This document shows, piece by piece, positions 1 through 20,410 of a DNA stretch of 39,947 nt. The stretch's first letter is position 1, and every line of letters begins with the position of its first letter. This stretch comes from an uncultured Clostridia bacterium. GTDB lineage: Bacteria; Bacillota; Clostridia; TANB77; CAG-508. The DNA is taken from positions 1 to 39,947 of the forward strand of contig CANRPX010000004.1 of the NCBI GenBank assembly GCA_947632605.1, given 5' to 3'. The notes below the pieces were generated by a model. It made no database searches, was not told where the DNA came from, and saw only the letters and a program-made list of their open reading frames with translations. The translations under genes were made by a program, and so were the position numbers.

Positions 1-147
1 ATTTGTATTTGTATTTGTGTTTCTATTTGTGTTTGTATTAGTATTAGTGTTTCTGTTTGTATTTGTGTTTGTGTTAGTATCTTTATTATTATTTGTGTTT
101 TCATTTCTGTTATCATTATCATTGTTATTTACATTTTCGTTTTTATC
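1..147 (-). repeat. Asn-Thr/Asn-Arg codon repeat (linker)
   Basis: Low-complexity coding repeat in the cohesin-like gene. On the - strand it is built from AAT/AAC and ACA/ACT codons with AGA interruptions about every 8 codons (24 nt), giving TNTNTNRN units. It runs off the left edge. Such tracts usually form flexible extracellular linkers and are prone to length change by slippage. Confidence 0.85.
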
Positions 148-792
148 ATCATCACCAGGATTTTGATCATCTGGTTCGCTAGGATTATCTGGTGTTACTG
201 GAGTTGATGAATCAGAAGTAATTGTTAAATTTATATTTTTTGATAAATCATCTGCAATTCTACCTTCTTCAACAGATGTTGAAAATAGTGTGAAGTTTGA
301 GAAAGATATTGCATTTTGTATTTGTCCTTCAGAAACATTTGATTTAACTTTGAAATCTATTTTTAATAATTCTGTATCTGAAGAAATACCATTTGCTAAA
401 TCAATTAGTATTTTAACATTGTTATTTCCTGATGGTTTAGCATTAAATACTACACATGCATTTGTATCAGAAACGTTTTTACCATCTGTAACATCTTCAA
501 CTTTTAATGTTTCAGATCCTATTTTTACATTACCATCTGCATCTTTTTGTATATTTTCTACTGTAATTGTTTCAAATATACTAGTATTATAATTTATATA
601 TCCTTCTATTGTTCCAACTTTTTTACCTTCACCTACATCTACTAATGATAGTGTTGCAGTAACAGTTTCTCCTTTTTTTACACTTGATTTAGAAACTGTT
701 GCTCCTATATTGGCACTAGCAGCATATACACTTGTACTTATTAACAGTATTGAAACTAATACTTGTAATAATATTAACTTACATTTTTTCAT
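1..792 (-). CDS. Secreted cohesin-like domain protein with Asn/Thr linker (3' part outside window)
   Basis: The reading frame opens at ATG 790-792 and stays open to base 1, giving 264 residues with no stop, so the C-terminus is missing. Residues 1-25 are a signal peptide (MKKC, then a hydrophobic core, ending SVYAA). Residues about 28-192 read as an all-beta, cohesin-like domain. It begins IGATVSKSSVKKGETVTATL, contains an EGYINYNTSIFE strand like the cohesin YDP region, and has LLKIDFKVKSNVSEG near its end, like the cohesin 'FKVKS..G' strand. From about residue 194 the chain is Pro/Asp-rich and then almost pure Asn-Thr/Asn-Arg repeats. A GAGGAG ribosome binding site precedes the start. The upstream neighbour on the same strand is a dockerin protein, which supports a cohesin call. 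The missing end could carry a sortase signal, a second domain or a membrane anchor. The fold assignment is by eye. Confidence 0.7.
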   Translation of the reverse strand, partial: MKKCKLILLQVLVSILLISTSVYAASANIGATVSKSSVKKGETVTATLSLVDVGEGKKVGTIEGYINYNTSIFETITVENIQKDADGNVKIGSETLKVEDVTDGKNVSDTNACVVFNAKPSGNNNVKILIDLANGISSDTELLKIDFKVKSNVSEGQIQNAISFSNFTLFSTSVEEGRIADDLSKNINLTITSDSSTPVTPDNPSEPDDQNPGDDDKNENVNNNDNDNRNENTNNNKDTNTNTNTNRNTNTNTNTNRNTNTNTN

Positions 793-826
793 AATATTTA
801 TTCTCCTCATTTGCTTATACAATATA

Positions 827-855
827 AGAATAACATTTATAAATTTAAAAATCAA
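827..855 (-). promoter_or_regulatory. Promoter of cohesin-like gene
   Basis: On the - strand, TTGATT (850-855) and TATTCT (827-832) are separated by 17 nt, with a TGT extended -10. It lies 35 nt upstream of the start codon, so the gene probably has its own promoter despite following the dockerin gene. Confidence 0.5.
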
Positions 856-886
856 TATTTTTTTACCATATTCGACTTTTATTTTA

Positions 887-924
887 TAGATAATTAGGCA
901 ACTTTTTTGTTACCTAATTATCTA
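887..924 (-). terminator. Stem-loop 3' of LRR-dockerin gene
   Basis: A 16-bp inverted repeat (887-902 with 909-924) around a 6-nt loop. In the - strand transcript it pairs fully, with one G-U wobble. It sits 10 nt after the stop codon at 934-936. It lacks a good U-tract after the stem on the - strand, so it may act as an RNA-stabilising end or a weak terminator. Confidence 0.5.
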
Positions 925-933
925 ATTGTTTTC

Positions 934-3900
934 TTATTTTACGAAGTTTAGATCATATCCACTTACTTCAGCTCTATGATATAATAATAGTTTTGAATCT
1001 AATACATCTACATGTCCATCTTCGTTTATATCTCCTGCAGCAAATTGTGCACCTTCAAGAACTTTTACTTCGGCTCTATGAGATTTTATTAATATTGAAT
1101 CTGATGCATCTGCATATCCATCTCCATTAATATCACCTTTTACTACTACTTGATATACTACAAGATCTCCGTTTTGATCTTTTATTACATTTCCATTTTG
1201 GTCTAAAACTTTTACATACATTCCTGTTTTCATATATCCTGTTGTTACTTCTTCTCCATCTTCTTCAGAAGTTACTTGTACTTTGTATGTTAATCCGTTT
1301 AATAAAACTTCTTTAAAGTCTTCAACTGGTGTTTTTGCCAATATCTCTGTTACATATTCTTCACCTTCAGTATATCCTAAGTTTTCTGTATTAACTGAAG
1401 GAACTTCTGGATCTACTGGTGTTGTATTAGTATTTGTATTTGGATCTACTGGTGGATTTTCTGTATTTGTATCTGGATCTACTGGTGTTGTATTAGTATT
1501 AGTATTTGTGTCTGGATCTACTGGTGGATTTTCTGTATTTGTATTTGTGTTTGTATCTGGATTTACTGGTAATTTCTCACCATCTACAACAGTATAATAA
1601 ATTGTTGCAGTTGTTCCTTCACCAACACATGTTGTAACTGGGCTATTGTCTCCTGTTTGTGCAATTACTACAACTGTTCCTACCTTATCTCCTGTTGTTC
1701 TTGTATTTAATGTTACATAACTTCCTTCGAATTCAACTCTACCTCTTTGGCTTGTCTCACCGAAAGATGTTCTTTCTGTATCTATTTTTTGTAATTGTGT
1801 AAATATTTTTGGTAATTCAACATTTATTGTTGTTGGATATTCGTTTATATTAATTGGTTCTCTAATTACCAATTCAATATTTTGATTTCTTAAATCTATA
1901 TCTACTGTGTCTTCTCTAGCTAAATAGTTAGCATAGTTTCCACCTGATATATAATCTAAGTATATTAATAAACTTTCTACATCTGAAATTTGGTTTCCAG
2001 ATAAGTTTAATTTTTCCATATTTTTAAATACAGATAAATATTGTTGTTCTGTAATATCTAATTTTCCAGAAAGTAAGTTGTTACTTAAATCTAATTCTTT
2101 TATATTAGGTAAATTTGTAAGTGCACTCATATCTGATATGAAGTTATATCCTAAATATAATCTTTTTAAGTTTTCCATTTTTGACCAATCAATATTATCT
2201 ACATCTGCAATATAACAATAACTTGCATCTAATGTATATAATGATTGTAATTCAGTTATTCTTTCAATATTATCTAAGTCTGCGTTATAAGAAACATTTA
2301 AATCTTTTAATCTTGGTAATTTAATATATTTATTTGTATCACCATTTAATAATTTTTTAGCTAAACTCATCATTTGGTTATATAACATTACTGAGTTAAG
2401 TTCGCTCTTATATACTTTTTCATTTACTTTTACTGTTTCGTATAAATCCATTGATTTAACTACTCCATTAGCTCTTTCTGTTCCAATTTTATCAAGTACT
2501 CTTGTTACATTTGCTCTCTTATCTGAATCTTGGTTAGTTTCTGATTTAGAAGCAGTTACTGCATTTTCTATTAATTCACTCTTAGTATAATTTGTTCTTT
2601 GACTTACTAAAGAATTTACTTCTTTATATTCATCTTTTCCTAAATATACTTTTACTTTATCAGATTCTTGTCCAAGAGATACATTTGTATAATCTTTGTT
2701 AGTATCTTCATATTTTCTGTATTCAGTATATAATTTGCTATATGAAGAACCTGTTTGAATTGATTTTAATACATCTTCTTCTAATGTTGCTGGTATTTCT
2801 TCTATTTCAAGTGCATTTATTCTCTTCTCTAAGTATTCTTCTTCATAACAATATCCTGTAGCTGTGTCTTCATTCATTCTTTTAATTAAGCAATAATTTG
2901 CCATTTCTGAATAAAGTCCTATTTCTCTAAATACTTTTAATAATTTTACAACTTCTGTTCTAGTTAAAGGTGTATCTTTTAAATATTCATCAAAATATTT
3001 TGCTACTGGTTTTTCTTCTTTTGAATCATCAAAAGAAATTCCAAATTGTGTTGAAAGTAAAGCTTTATCTAAATCTGATAGAGCACCTTCTGTTTCTAAT
3101 GTTTTTAAGAAATCAATTTGTCCTTGTAATAATCCTTTTGCAGAATCTGTAGATTCTTTTGTTTTATCTTCATAAGTTTTGTATTCATCATAAGTTTCAT
3201 AATTCATGTCTACACTTAATAATGAAGTTAATTTATATTCATTATTATATAGAAGATATAAATGAGCTAAATATGCATACATTGATTGTATACCTTCATT
3301 TACTTTTTCGATATTACCATCTACATGTCCTTCACTTGTTCCTTCATAACCTTCAATTAAATCTTTGTATCCTGGAACATATTCACCTTGCTCATTAGTA
3401 TATCCATAAATTTCATCTAATATTTTATTAACAGATGTAGCTTTATTATCTACTTCGTCTAAATATTTTTCTTTTGTTACATCAACATCTGCTGCATCAG
3501 CTAACAATGCAAGTACTCTTGTATATGCATCTGTAATAGCTTTTTCATTTTCTTTCATTTCTTTTCTAGCGTCTTCTGTTTCTTTAGTTACTTGAGATAA
3601 ATTTCCATAACTTCTTGTTTTTAAATATTCAACATATTTTTCAATTATTTGTGATTCCCAAAATGCTTTTTGTTCTTCCATACTATATAATGGATCAATA
3701 TCACTTAAGTAGTTATGAGAAACATTTAGTCTTGAACTTAAACCTACAAAATGTTCAATTCCTGATAAATCTCTTATTTGTTTATTGTTTAATATTAATG
3801 ATGTTATTTTGTTTGTTAATACTAAATCATTTATAACAAATGTTTTAGCATCATCATAAGCTTGTATATATAATGTAGTATTTGAGTCTTCTCCAACAAA

Positions 3901-5121
3901 TGCTATTCTATAACCAGCTTTACTTGTAAGTGTTCCTTGTGCATCTGGTGTAGAAATAACTGTTTCTTCGACTGTTGTACGTACAATATCTCCTAATACA
4001 TCAGTATCTTTATATCTATATAAAGTTTTTGTAGCATAATCATAAATATATTCTTTTTCTTTTGATTCTACATTAGTTAATACTCTATATGATTTACCTT
4101 GTATTTGTTTTTCTTCATAAGTAAATTCTTCATATATAATATTTCCTTTTGTATCTGTTTTAAATGGATAACTTGCAAGTTCAGGATTTTTTGTTTGTCC
4201 TGCTGTTAATTGTTCTTTTATAGCATAATATAAATTTGTATCCATTGTTGTAATTGCTTCAGATGATTTATCATATACTACAAAGTATAATGTAAATTTA
4301 CTTCCATTTAATATATTACTTGCAGCTTTGTTTGGATTACTTAAACTTGCTGCTTCTGTTGGATCATCATATATGTATATAACTACTTCTAACATACCAT
4401 AATATGGTGTTCCTTCTTCACTACTGATATTTACTTCTATTTGATATTCATCTTGTGATACATACATTGGTATACTATCTACACTTATATATGGTGCAAT
4501 AGAACTTGGAGTTTCTTTTACACTTCTTGTTGATTTCCAACATGATTTAATGTATCCAGCTAATTCTAATATTGTAGGTAAATTAAAATTAGCTTTTTCT
4601 GCATTGTCTGATTCTTCATCAGTATCAACATATACTGTTTGAACAGACATTACATTTTGACCACTAAGAATTACTGTTCCTTTTGTTCTTAGTGTATCAA
4701 TTAACCCTCTTATCTCACTAATATCATCTAATTTATTAGTAGATAAATCTAAGTAGTTTAAATTAGGTAAGTTATTTAAAACACCTAAATTACTACTTTT
4801 AGTTAAATTGTTTCCTGATAACTCTAAGTGTTCTAGTGATGAAAATGCATCAAGTCCTGTTAAATCTGAAATTGAACCTTCATTCAAGTTCAAAGTTTTA
4901 ATAGAGGCTTTTTGTGCTTCACTTAAAGTTAAGGTGTGAGTAACTTCTGTTGCTGTAACTTTAATTCCTTGAGTATCAAGGCTTGCTTTTACAGCTTTGT
5001 ACAAGTTACTGTTTAGTTGAATCTCTTCACCTTCTGCTGCGTTTACCACGAAAAGTGGCATAACGCAATTCAATAGCATAATCGTAATTAATGCAATTGA
5101 GATTAACATTTTCCTTTTCAT
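934..5121 (-). CDS. Secreted leucine-rich repeat protein with C-terminal type I dockerin
   Basis: This 1395-aa exported protein starts with a signal peptide (MKRKMLISIALITIMLLN, cleavage near VNAAEG, about residue 29). LRR blocks with the LxxLxLxxN pattern occur at about residues 70-150, 435-485 and 930-1060. A long Lys/Glu-rich, probably helical segment lies between them. Residues about 1095-1178 look beta-rich. A Pro/Asp/Asn/Thr linker covers about 1180-1240, followed by a small pre-dockerin module. The dockerin at about 1327-1395 has two calcium loops, DINGDGYADASD and DINEDGHVDVLD, each followed by a helix ending in HRAEV. The loops differ at positions 10-11 (AS versus VL). No catalytic domain is recognised. 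LRRs suggest protein or host-surface binding, and the dockerin predicts docking to a cohesin, perhaps that of the downstream gene. A GGGAGGA site 7 nt before ATG supports the start. Confidence 0.88.
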   Translation of the reverse strand: MKRKMLISIALITIMLLNCVMPLFVVNAAEGEEIQLNSNLYKAVKASLDTQGIKVTATEVTHTLTLSEAQKASIKTLNLNEGSISDLTGLDAFSSLEHLELSGNNLTKSSNLGVLNNLPNLNYLDLSTNKLDDISEIRGLIDTLRTKGTVILSGQNVMSVQTVYVDTDEESDNAEKANFNLPTILELAGYIKSCWKSTRSVKETPSSIAPYISVDSIPMYVSQDEYQIEVNISSEEGTPYYGMLEVVIYIYDDPTEAASLSNPNKAASNILNGSKFTLYFVVYDKSSEAITTMDTNLYYAIKEQLTAGQTKNPELASYPFKTDTKGNIIYEEFTYEEKQIQGKSYRVLTNVESKEKEYIYDYATKTLYRYKDTDVLGDIVRTTVEETVISTPDAQGTLTSKAGYRIAFVGEDSNTTLYIQAYDDAKTFVINDLVLTNKITSLILNNKQIRDLSGIEHFVGLSSRLNVSHNYLSDIDPLYSMEEQKAFWESQIIEKYVEYLKTRSYGNLSQVTKETEDARKEMKENEKAITDAYTRVLALLADAADVDVTKEKYLDEVDNKATSVNKILDEIYGYTNEQGEYVPGYKDLIEGYEGTSEGHVDGNIEKVNEGIQSMYAYLAHLYLLYNNEYKLTSLLSVDMNYETYDEYKTYEDKTKESTDSAKGLLQGQIDFLKTLETEGALSDLDKALLSTQFGISFDDSKEEKPVAKYFDEYLKDTPLTRTEVVKLLKVFREIGLYSEMANYCLIKRMNEDTATGYCYEEEYLEKRINALEIEEIPATLEEDVLKSIQTGSSYSKLYTEYRKYEDTNKDYTNVSLGQESDKVKVYLGKDEYKEVNSLVSQRTNYTKSELIENAVTASKSETNQDSDKRANVTRVLDKIGTERANGVVKSMDLYETVKVNEKVYKSELNSVMLYNQMMSLAKKLLNGDTNKYIKLPRLKDLNVSYNADLDNIERITELQSLYTLDASYCYIADVDNIDWSKMENLKRLYLGYNFISDMSALTNLPNIKELDLSNNLLSGKLDITEQQYLSVFKNMEKLNLSGNQISDVESLLIYLDYISGGNYANYLAREDTVDIDLRNQNIELVIREPININEYPTTINVELPKIFTQLQKIDTERTSFGETSQRGRVEFEGSYVTLNTRTTGDKVGTVVVIAQTGDNSPVTTCVGEGTTATIYYTVVDGEKLPVNPDTNTNTNTENPPVDPDTNTNTNTTPVDPDTNTENPPVDPNTNTNTTPVDPEVPSVNTENLGYTEGEEYVTEILAKTPVEDFKEVLLNGLTYKVQVTSEEDGEEVTTGYMKTGMYVKVLDQNGNVIKDQNGDLVVYQVVVKGDINGDGYADASDSILIKSHRAEVKVLEGAQFAAGDINEDGHVDVLDSKLLLYHRAEVSGYDLNFVK
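1417..1575 (-). repeat. Pro-Val-Asp-Pro/Asn-Thr linker repeat
   Basis: Imperfect coding repeats of about 30-50 nt give units such as PVDPDTNTNT and ENPPVDPNTNT in the LRR-dockerin protein. They match in style the linker of the adjacent cohesin-like protein, suggesting that both are displayed in the same extracellular setting. Confidence 0.85.
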
Positions 5122-17086: not shown

Positions 17087-17095
17087 AAGTTTATT

Positions 17096-17146
17096 AAACG
17101 AGTTTTTAAAATCTCTAAAAATTGATTTTAAGAGCTCGTTTTTTTA
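17096..17146 (+). terminator. Terminator of the activase-like gene
   Basis: AAACGAG (17096-17102) pairs with CTCGTTT (17135-17141), with further inner pairing of TTTTAAAATC and GATTTTAA, and is followed by a T-run. It starts 10 nt after the stop codon. Confidence 0.85.
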
Positions 17147-17582
17147 TACTTCTTATTTTTTAAATTTCTTTCAAGCCTTTACTTTTTTTCTGTAAATTTT
17201 AACTTATTTTTGGGTAAAAATTTAACCTATTTTAGTTTACATTATATGGATTTTATAAAAGATTTTTATGTTTTTAAAATCTGTTTTTTTCTTCTTTCCC
17301 CAACTAAAAATCATTTATTTTATGGTTCAATTTTACTATTTGTTTTTTTGTCAATTTACTAAAGGCTTTTTACTAAAATCATTTTTTCACTTTTCTCAAA
17401 ATTTTTAATTTTTTTACCTGTTTTTATAAAATATCATTCTATGCACGTTATTTTTAGAATTTTGCCTTAAAACCCTAATATTTAAAGTATTTTAGCCTTT
17501 TTCTATATTAGTGCATATTTATTTTCAATTTTTAGATAAGAAAGATACATAGAAATGGTATATCATTATTTCATTTTCTGAA

Positions 17583-17619
17583 AAAAAGTAGTTTTTTTTC
17601 TTCAAAAAAACTACTTTTT
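17583..17619. terminator. Perfect bidirectional terminator-like hairpin
   Basis: A 16-bp perfect inverted repeat (17583-17598 with 17604-17619) of the form AAAAAGTAGTTTTTTT around a 5-nt loop. A/T tracts on both flanks make it terminator-like in either direction. No gene lies next to it now, so it probably marks the end of a lost - strand gene. Confidence 0.6.
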
Positions 17620-18107
17620 ATTATCTACCTTTTTCTTAAGTTTTAAGTTTACTTAAAACACATTTTACGAAAATAAATCATATCACTTTTTATACAAAAG
17701 TCACATAGCTCTATCTTTTGTTTCCCAAGTATTTTAGTTGTTTTTTATAAATTCTTAAATCAAAAGCATTTATTGTTGTTTAAAAGACAATTTATTAGTG
17801 ATTTTTTATCAAATTTTGAAAAATTTTTTCTCAAAATTTCTAATTTTTTTATAAAATTATACATCTGTTATAAGCACTTATTATATTAAAATATGTTCTC
17901 TATTTTGGTATCAACTTTTAAAATTTTATACAAATATAATTTTGATAACTTTATAAAACTTTCTTTTAACTGATCTATTATCTTTTAGATTTGCATATCT
18001 TATTATATAAACATTTTGTTTTGTACTTATATAAAAATGACCTCTGAAAATAAAATTTAAAGCGATTTAAAAATAAAGTAATGAAATTATATTATAAAAA
18101 ATTTATG

Positions 18108-18413
18108 TTACTTGTTATTCTTTTCTTTAGTTACCTTTCTTTCTTTATTATCTTTTACTTCTTTTTGAGATAAAGAAAAAGAACTATTATTGTTTTGTAT
18201 ATTATTTTCATTTTCTTGCATAGAATATTTAGTAGTAGTATTTCCATTATTGATATTTGTGTTTGAATTTTGTATACTATTATTAGAAGTATTATTGCTA
18301 ATGTTTGAATATTGTATTCTTTCATTTAAGGCTGATACTTCTTTTTTATTATAAATAACTTCAAAATTCTTGTTTAAATATTTAGTTATATATAAACACT
18401 TTTTATTTGATTT
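18108..18413 (-). pseudogene. Decayed ORF remnant, Asn/Ser-rich C-terminus
   Basis: An open frame of 101 codons on the - strand ends at TAA 18108-18110 and is preceded in frame by TGA (18414-18416), with no start codon or ribosome binding site. It reads ...YITKYLNKNFEVIYN, then an Asn/Ser/Thr-rich stretch (SNISNNTSNNSIQNSNTN), then a Lys/Glu-rich tail. An adjacent frame just upstream reads RKRFIDENQIKSVYI, which would join to it after a frameshift, and further upstream fragments such as DKSLEKFNSLIE are separated by stops. This is what a gene broken by frameshifts and stops looks like. Family not identified. Confidence 0.45.
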
Positions 18414-20377
18414 TCATCAATAAATCTTTTCCTAACTATTATAATTTACATTTTTTTGTATTCATAATTTATATGCTTCTTATTCTATTAAAGAATTAAA
18501 TTTCTCTAAACTTTTATCTTAATTAAATTTTTTATAAAATTTGACTTAAAATTTTTAATTTTTTTTATTAAAATTCTTTTTCTTGTTTTCCAATAATTTA
18601 CTTTTTTATTAATAATATTTGTTATAAGTTCTATCAAAATTTTTTATAAATTTGCAATTACTTTTTTTAGGTTTCTTTATCTAAAAAATTCTTCTTTTTA
18701 GTTTACTTTTTAACTATTTTTTTATTATCTATTGGGCTTATTTTTAGTTATTTTTCTTCTCGTTTTTGCTTATTTCCCATGCATTTTACTAAAAATTTCT
18801 TTATTTTTAAGTTTTAAAATTAATCACTTGTTTTTTTGTCAATTTACTTTTTAGGTTTTGAATTTCAAAATTTTACTTTTTCTCTTTTTCTTTAATTTTT
18901 TTCCATGTTTTTTATCTTTATTTGTATATCGATTCTTTTTTCCAATTGTTTATGTTTTTCCAGTAATACCAACATATTTGTAACTTTTTATCAGATTTTA
19001 ATGGTAATTTTGAATTTTCACATTAAAATTTACGATAAATTAAGGATACTTCTTTTAAGATTTTTTATTATTTTTTACTTTTAAAATTCTCTCTTTTTTG
19101 CCAATTTAAATCTTTAAATTTTATTTTAAATACATTTACATAATTTTAATATTTTTCTTTTGTTTTCTTCTTTAACTGTCTTCTCTATCTATTATTTCCA
19201 AAGTATAATCTTCTTTTTTATATACTTTTATCTATTTTTTGTTTATTAGACAATATTTTTCTGTGTTTTCTTTTGTTATTTTAAAACATTTGTTTTCTAT
19301 TTTTTCTCATTTTTTCTAATTTTTTTATATAAATTCTTGATACTTTTATATAATAAAATAGTCCTTTTATAATATAAAAAACTATCTACTTTTTTATATT
19401 CGTTATATAAAATCAGATCTATTTTTGTTATATTTTTTTATTTGCATCTTTTTATATTTTTATGCTCTCGCATATTTTATTTTTTAATCTTATTTTTCTT
19501 ATTGTAATTTTATATTTTCTTTTTTAAAAAAATTTTTATATAAAAAATTTTTCTCATTCATTTTTTATAATTTTTCTTTTTATAAATTTTCATCTCCAAA
19601 CTTTATTTTTATTTTTTACTTAATAAAGAAAAAATTTTTACTTAAATTTTCTTTTAAGTTAAATTTTTGTTTTTAAAAATTATATTTACACATTTTAAAT
19701 TTAATTTAATCCTTATATCATTTTTGAAAAAATTTTCCGTATCTTAAACTAAAAAAATTATCTTTCTTTTTTTGTGGTTTTGTGGATATCTTTTTTATCT
19801 AATTTTCGAAGTGTTTAAGTTGTCATAATCTTGATTTTAATTAAAACTTTTGCTTTATTTTTCCTTTCTAGACAATATATATCCCTTAGGCTACATCAAT
19901 TTTTAATATAAAAATTTTAAAACTTAAAAATCCTTGTTTTATTGACAACTAAAAAATTCAATTTTTATTTTTCATTTTTTCACTTTTCTTCTTTTTTTTA
20001 ATTTTTTATGTTGTTTTTTAGTTTTTTTTTTGTAATTTTTTTATCATTTTTTGGTATTTTTTATTTTTTTGGAAATTTTTTTATAAATTTTACAAATTTC
20101 AATCTATTTTTTTACTATTTTTAAGCCATTTTTTTGTATGCAAAATTTTTACAGTTTTAGTTACGTTAATATTGTATTATGTTTACTTTTAGTGCTCTAT
20201 TTTTGCTTTTAACTTACAACGTTATCCTTTTATTTCCGAACATTTATATCTATTTTTTCTTGTTTTAAAAATTTCGTTTATTTTATTTTGTCATTTTGTA
20301 TCTTTTTTGCTTCAATTGATGCATTTTTTTGAAACAAATTTTCTTCTTATTTTTAAAAAATCTCTTATTTTTGCAAT

Positions 20378-20405
20378 AAAAAAAAGATAGTATATAAATA
20401 CTACC
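20378..20405 (-). terminator. Terminator of tRNA-Ser(GCU)
   Basis: A 7-bp stem (20386-20392 with 20399-20405, one G-U wobble in the - strand RNA), followed on the - strand by a run of eight T. It lies 5 nt past the tRNA 3' end. Confidence 0.75.
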
Positions 20406-20410
20406 TTTTT

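Follow-up and report, generated by a model that had tools for sequence, protein, structure and literature searches.

Tandem dockerin and cohesin genes at a contig end

The window, by which we mean the whole 39,947-nucleotide stretch of DNA analysed here, begins with two genes in tandem on the minus strand, a dockerin gene followed by a cohesin gene, as the first-pass annotation had reported. The features of the pair, in the direction of transcription, are listed below.

934..5121, minus strand: dockerin-bearing cargo gene, the upstream member of the pair (open reading frame of 1395 aa)
1141..1380, minus strand: X-module, residues ~1248–1327, upstream of the dockerin
985..1140, minus strand: type I dockerin, residues 1328–1379, with two Ca-binding loops
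887..924, minus strand: RNA stem-loop with a 16-bp stem, directly 3' of the dockerin stop codon and without a T-run
803..808, minus strand: Shine-Dalgarno sequence GAGGAG of the cohesin gene, read from the sequence
1..792, minus strand: single-cohesin partner gene, the downstream member of the pair (ATG at 792, open at base 1)
214..720, minus strand: cohesin domain (PF00963, AlphaFold2, Foldseek)
1..213, minus strand: Asn/Thr-rich spacer, seen in the sequence and its tandem repeats and expected to lead into an LPxTG-type sorting signal past the contig end

The cargo gene encodes, in order, a signal peptide, internalin-type leucine-rich repeat (LRR) patches, a helical middle, a Pro/Asn/Thr linker, the X-module and the dockerin. 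The LRR architecture described at first pass is real, with LRR_4 scoring 79.4 bits in a Pfam scan, LRR_4/LRR_8 repeats (the mark of internalin-type LRR proteins) present, and an internalin match in a PDB sequence search (4fmz, E 2.7e-12). The repeats, however, form three patches (residues ~70–150, 430–470 and 935–1060) separated by non-LRR, partly helical sequence, rather than one continuous array, and the X-module had been overlooked. The internalin-type LRRs suggest that the cargo may have a ligand-binding, adhesin-like role. No C-terminal anchor motif or transmembrane segment was found in the protein.

The X-module aligns with the pre-dockerin segments of the genome's two other paired cargo proteins, and it folds together with the dockerin in an AlphaFold2 model (pLDDT 89.3). 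The dockerin is indeed a complete two-loop type I domain: Dockerin_1 (PF00404) scores 29.0 bits (cut-off 22.9) over residues 1328–1379, both Ca loops are complete, and Foldseek aligned the type I dockerin 2ccl_B to the X-dockerin model with an rmsd of 1.1 Å (TM 0.91 over the target; E 3e-3, a modest value because the dockerin makes up just 60 residues of the model). Loop positions 10–11 read AS in one loop and VL in the other, as originally annotated. Both recognition helices of this dockerin, however, terminate in HRAEV; of the two, the second varies less across the dockerin class (mean entropy 0.92 vs 1.32 bits). Many type I dockerins have a dual binding mode, with two equivalent faces; the helix-2 conservation seen here leans toward a single mode, as first proposed, without proving it.

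The domain first described as cohesin-like proved to be a genuine cohesin. With the Asn/Thr tail left off, PF00963 was matched at 44.7 bits (cut-off 24.1, E 2e-11); a Pfam scan of the full-length ORF, tail included, reported no cohesin, presumably because of the low-complexity tail. The structure prediction that had been suggested as a check gave a confident model (AlphaFold2, pLDDT 94.1) and no unrelated sandwich: its best PDB matches in Foldseek are cohesins, headed by the C. perfringens cohesin 2vo8 (E 9.7e-7), and these leading structures reach TM ~0.5–0.6 over the query, with integrin and pilin domains ranking lower. The C-terminus of the protein is missing because base 1 of the window is also base 1 of its contig (C4), and the assembly probably broke at the repeats that code for Asn/Thr. 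Complete homologues carry an LPxTG-like end, including the nearest one (94% identical over the aligned stretch), which ends in LPKTG, and the window protein very likely does the same.

The stem-loop between the two genes is strong (–20.8 kcal/mol, z –9.7, with none of 200 shuffles as stable). We considered a terminator at this position and rejected it, since no T-run follows the stem-loop and a terminator scan was empty there.

Elsewhere in the window, positions 17087–20410 hold 3.3 kb without an ORF of at least 60 aa. This stretch is T-rich, with a G+C content of 14–20%, and lies beside two tRNA-Ser genes. From the sizes and order of the ORFs only, parA/parB and dnaA appear to be nearby, which would place it in the replication origin region.

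Cargoes and anchors in the genome and its relatives

A genome-wide count, proposed along with the first-pass annotation, gave four proteins with a dockerin and five with a single cohesin in 1.55 Mb (32 contigs), arranged so that three dockerin genes are each followed by a cohesin gene. The four dockerin proteins are the LRR protein of the window, a papain-like C1 protease with a lectin-like domain (contig C7), a transglutaminase-like protein (C11) and an SH3-domain protein (C3), and the first three of these have a single-cohesin gene directly downstream. The cohesin partner on C7 ends in VPYTG and that on C11 in LPKTG, each followed by a membrane segment. The SH3 protein (L157:4391-6184 (-)) has a degenerate second Ca loop; no cohesin was found at its locus, and elsewhere in the genome there were weak matches to known cohesins only. 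The transglutaminase-like protein (L010:3455-7051 (+)) carries an internal cohesin in addition to its C-terminal dockerin and could be an adaptor able to chain cargoes. The fifth cohesin (contig C19, L011:4547-6204 (-)) belongs to an LPKTG protein encoded beside its own sortase gene, without a dockerin partner; this arrangement recurs in five relatives (L161, L162, L163, L177, L179). The genome has ten sortases.

No multi-cohesin scaffoldin was found in the genome, the five cohesin proteins having one cohesin each, and there was no GH5 in the genome and no cellulase in the window. The first-pass statement that no carbohydrate enzyme accompanies the pair holds for the genome's four dockerin proteins, among which we found no CAZyme. 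It does not extend to the relatives, where dockerins also occur on NPCBM/F5-8C and DUF4874-DUF4832 proteins, cargoes that were not found in this genome.

We searched 56 related genomes with Pfam (36 of the same genus, 20 of the same order), which yielded at least 143 dockerins and at least 149 cohesins after split hits were merged. For at least 57 of these dockerins, spread over 33 of the 56 genomes, the next gene on the same strand encodes a single-cohesin protein; the dockerin always comes first, and 125–382 bp separate the modules. Arithmetic from the dockerin and cohesin counts predicts ~0.1 such pairs by chance; four further dockerin–cohesin pairs lie beyond these. By cargo, 58 pairs (including that on C11) divide into 22 LRR, 14 transglutaminase, 12 papain, six SH3 and four others. 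Each of the 19 LRR-dockerin loci detected in named public genomes is immediately followed by a cohesin ORF; the genomes are MAGs labelled Clostridia, whose isolate names suggest an origin in the guts of sheep, deer and other animals.

Among the complete cohesin partners, an LPxTG-like motif followed by a transmembrane segment ends all 20 of the LRR class, all 12 of the papain class and all 13 of the transglutaminase class, while the six SH3-class partners have a membrane segment only. None of the dockerin proteins examined carries a C-terminal anchor.

The pairing is not strictly exclusive. Papain-class cohesins occur without a papain-dockerin gene beside them in ten genomes (L165-L170, L172-L175), mostly adjoining what appears, in a by-eye comparison, to be the same minus-strand neighbour that precedes the papain gene here. 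Together with the SH3 dockerin that lacks an adjacent cohesin in this genome, these run counter to an obligate pairing. In relatives, dockerins also occur on glycan-related proteins. Several relatives encode large unlinked NPCBM/F5-8C proteins whose dockerins have recognition helices of the transglutaminase class, and in one (genome G001) the LRR-class X-dockerin of a DUF4874-DUF4832 protein (L192:9944-12271 (+)) is 58% identical to that of the window. A class is therefore more aptly described as an address that may be open to more than one cargo.

Class matching, probable recombination and the intergenic stem

Trees of the X-dockerins and of the cohesins both resolve one clade per cargo class, except that the transglutaminase class requires an additional change in the cohesin tree, and the classes have their own typical recognition helices (LLLYHRAEV; LLLHYNE; LKLHYIE; LQRHILEI). 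Mean identity within a class across species is 0.47 for cohesins and 0.49 for X-dockerins, against 0.20 and 0.25, respectively, between classes inside one genome. With three tandem modules, each having its own dockerin and cohesin class, the classes are probably addressed separately within one cell, as far as sequence can indicate.

Distances among LRR-class cohesins track those among the matching X-dockerins more closely than the cargo body accounts for (partial r 0.42, 2 of 2000 permutations); in the papain (181 of 2000) and transglutaminase (462 of 2000) classes there is little or no such correlation. The LRR value is partly due to a shared recombination tract, and we do not rely on this mirror-tree result. 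Compared with the closest relative (genome G017, locus L092), DNA identity is 91–97% over the dockerin, spacer and cohesin (window 1–1300) and mostly 66–89% over the rest of the cargo gene. Because identity is high even in the non-coding spacer, it is likely that recombination moved both contact halves together, in a tract covering both contact modules.

A strong stem was found at the equivalent site in 17 of 22 LRR-class loci, in none of 13 transglutaminase-class loci and, as a borderline case, in one papain-class locus, a survey that is rough in that it used 20 mononucleotide shuffles per locus. In C. cellulolyticum, stem-loops between cellulosome genes are reported to set transcript stoichiometry (PMC4423207, PMC10311766). 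By analogy, the LRR-class stem-loop probably causes cargo and anchor to be made in different amounts.

A proposed surface-docking module, its rivals and its known counterparts

We propose that the two genes form a bicistronic surface-docking module in which the LRR cargo is held on the cell wall through predicted binding to the adjacently encoded, sortase-anchored cohesin, a reading to which we assign a probability of roughly 80%. The LRR protein would be exported without an anchor of its own, and its C-terminal X-dockerin would dock onto the single cohesin in the product of the adjacent gene, a protein that sortase would link to the cell wall through its LPxTG-like signal. Both genes would be co-transcribed, with the stem-loop of the LRR class tuning the ratio of cargo to anchor. 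We infer covalent anchoring of the window copy, binding, class specificity, co-transcription and expression control. The earlier suggestion of a non-cellulosomal surface complex stands in that the window has no cellulase, the gene pairing is conserved and the relatives' cohesin partners bear a wall anchor; the contact between cohesin and dockerin that it assumed is a predicted one. A broader proposal, which we put forward tentatively and at a little under even odds, is that throughout this genus of gut Clostridia with small genomes several non-crossing cohesin–dockerin codes per cell make up a general addressing system, placing a binder, a protease and a cross-linking-type enzyme on separate sortase-bound sockets without a scaffoldin; the cohesin–dockerin pair would then serve surface display in general and not the building of enzyme complexes.

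The likeliest alternative is that the classes do not have separate addresses, promiscuous binding among a cell's dockerins and wall-anchored cohesins producing a mixed mini-scaffold with the transglutaminase protein as adaptor. That protein's combination of internal cohesin and C-terminal dockerin would suit such a role, as would the additional LPxTG cohesin that comes with a sortase of its own but lacks a partnering dockerin, here and in relatives, and the appearance of transglutaminase-class helices on other cargoes. Yet recognition helices differ sharply between classes, a genome's cohesins are only ~20% identical from one class to another, and the two trees group their members by class, so that we regard promiscuous binding as unlikely. 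Less probable still is a reduced cellulosome that has lost its enzymes. Ruminococcal cellulosomes do include parts of all these kinds (cohesin, dockerin, X-module, sortase-anchored single cohesin), and dockerins on LRR, transglutaminase and peptidase proteins are known from R. flavefaciens as well (PMC2930009); a remnant is nevertheless hard to reconcile with a genome lacking both a multi-cohesin scaffoldin and GH5, or with four cargo classes that are kept across dozens of species and are not decaying. A search for GH48 was empty in all 56 genomes and is weak evidence on this point, since the control gave no match either.

It is also conceivable, though we consider it very improbable, that the cohesin-like and dockerin-like domains do not bind each other at all, the cohesin being a plain beta-sandwich spacer or binding another ligand and the adjacency reflecting shared regulation. 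Cohesin-fold domains do exist outside cellulosomes, integrin and pilin domains appear among the lower Foldseek ranks, and some cohesins stand alone; but without an interaction it would be difficult to account for dockerin genes preceding cohesin genes in four unrelated cargo classes, for the complementary anchoring and for trees that match class by class.

The proposed module falls outside the definition of a cellulosome, having one cohesin per protein and no cellulase cargo. Cohesin–dockerin pairs are familiar chiefly for holding cellulosomes together and, more recently, amylosomes and mucinolysomes. The recurrence of the tandem layout with varied cargoes and no cellulase suggests that a docking device of cellulose degraders is used here to pin individual surface proteins. 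If true, conserved dedicated cargo–anchor pairs in uncultured gut Clostridia would make cohesin–dockerin binding a means of surface attachment for non-carbohydrate proteins, and the sequence-distinct natural pairs of one cell would provide a ready set for testing specificity determinants and for orthogonal protein display.

In the open-access literature, the scope of our search, we found no prior description of such gene pairs beyond CttA–ScaE of R. flavefaciens. CttA is likewise a non-catalytic, substrate-binding X-dockerin protein whose gene adjoins that of a wall-bound single cohesin with a sortase-like signal; in the sca cluster of strain 007C, cttA and scaE lie ~300 bp apart (PMC3672088 Table 1; PMC3573020). 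ScaE, however, also anchors the whole cellulosome (ScaB) and sits in a scaffoldin cluster, and its partner cargo is cellulose-binding, whereas the pairs described here have no scaffoldin, an LRR cargo in the window, and several unlinked counterparts with different cargoes in one genome. R. flavefaciens FD-1 has more than 200 dockerin proteins in its genome and shared scaffoldins, in contrast to the four dockerins in total, three with an adjoining cohesin gene, seen here. The same non-carbohydrate dockerin cargoes (LRR, transglutaminase, peptidase) nonetheless occur in both (PMC2930009). The Limousia mucinolysome also belongs to a gut bacterium, serves a use other than cellulose and has a single cohesin on an LPxTG anchor (cSca5) (PMC12997984), but it relies on multi-cohesin scaffoldins, mucin-degrading CAZymes and one shared anchor, where we see one anchor per cargo class. 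The glycosidases of Clostridium perfringens resemble the present pairs in being linked pairwise by cohesin and dockerin without a scaffoldin, although what is linked there is one enzyme to another, not an exported cargo to a wall anchor. Set against these systems, and as judged from sequence, the pairs described here are dedicated, repeated cargo–anchor pairs without a scaffoldin.
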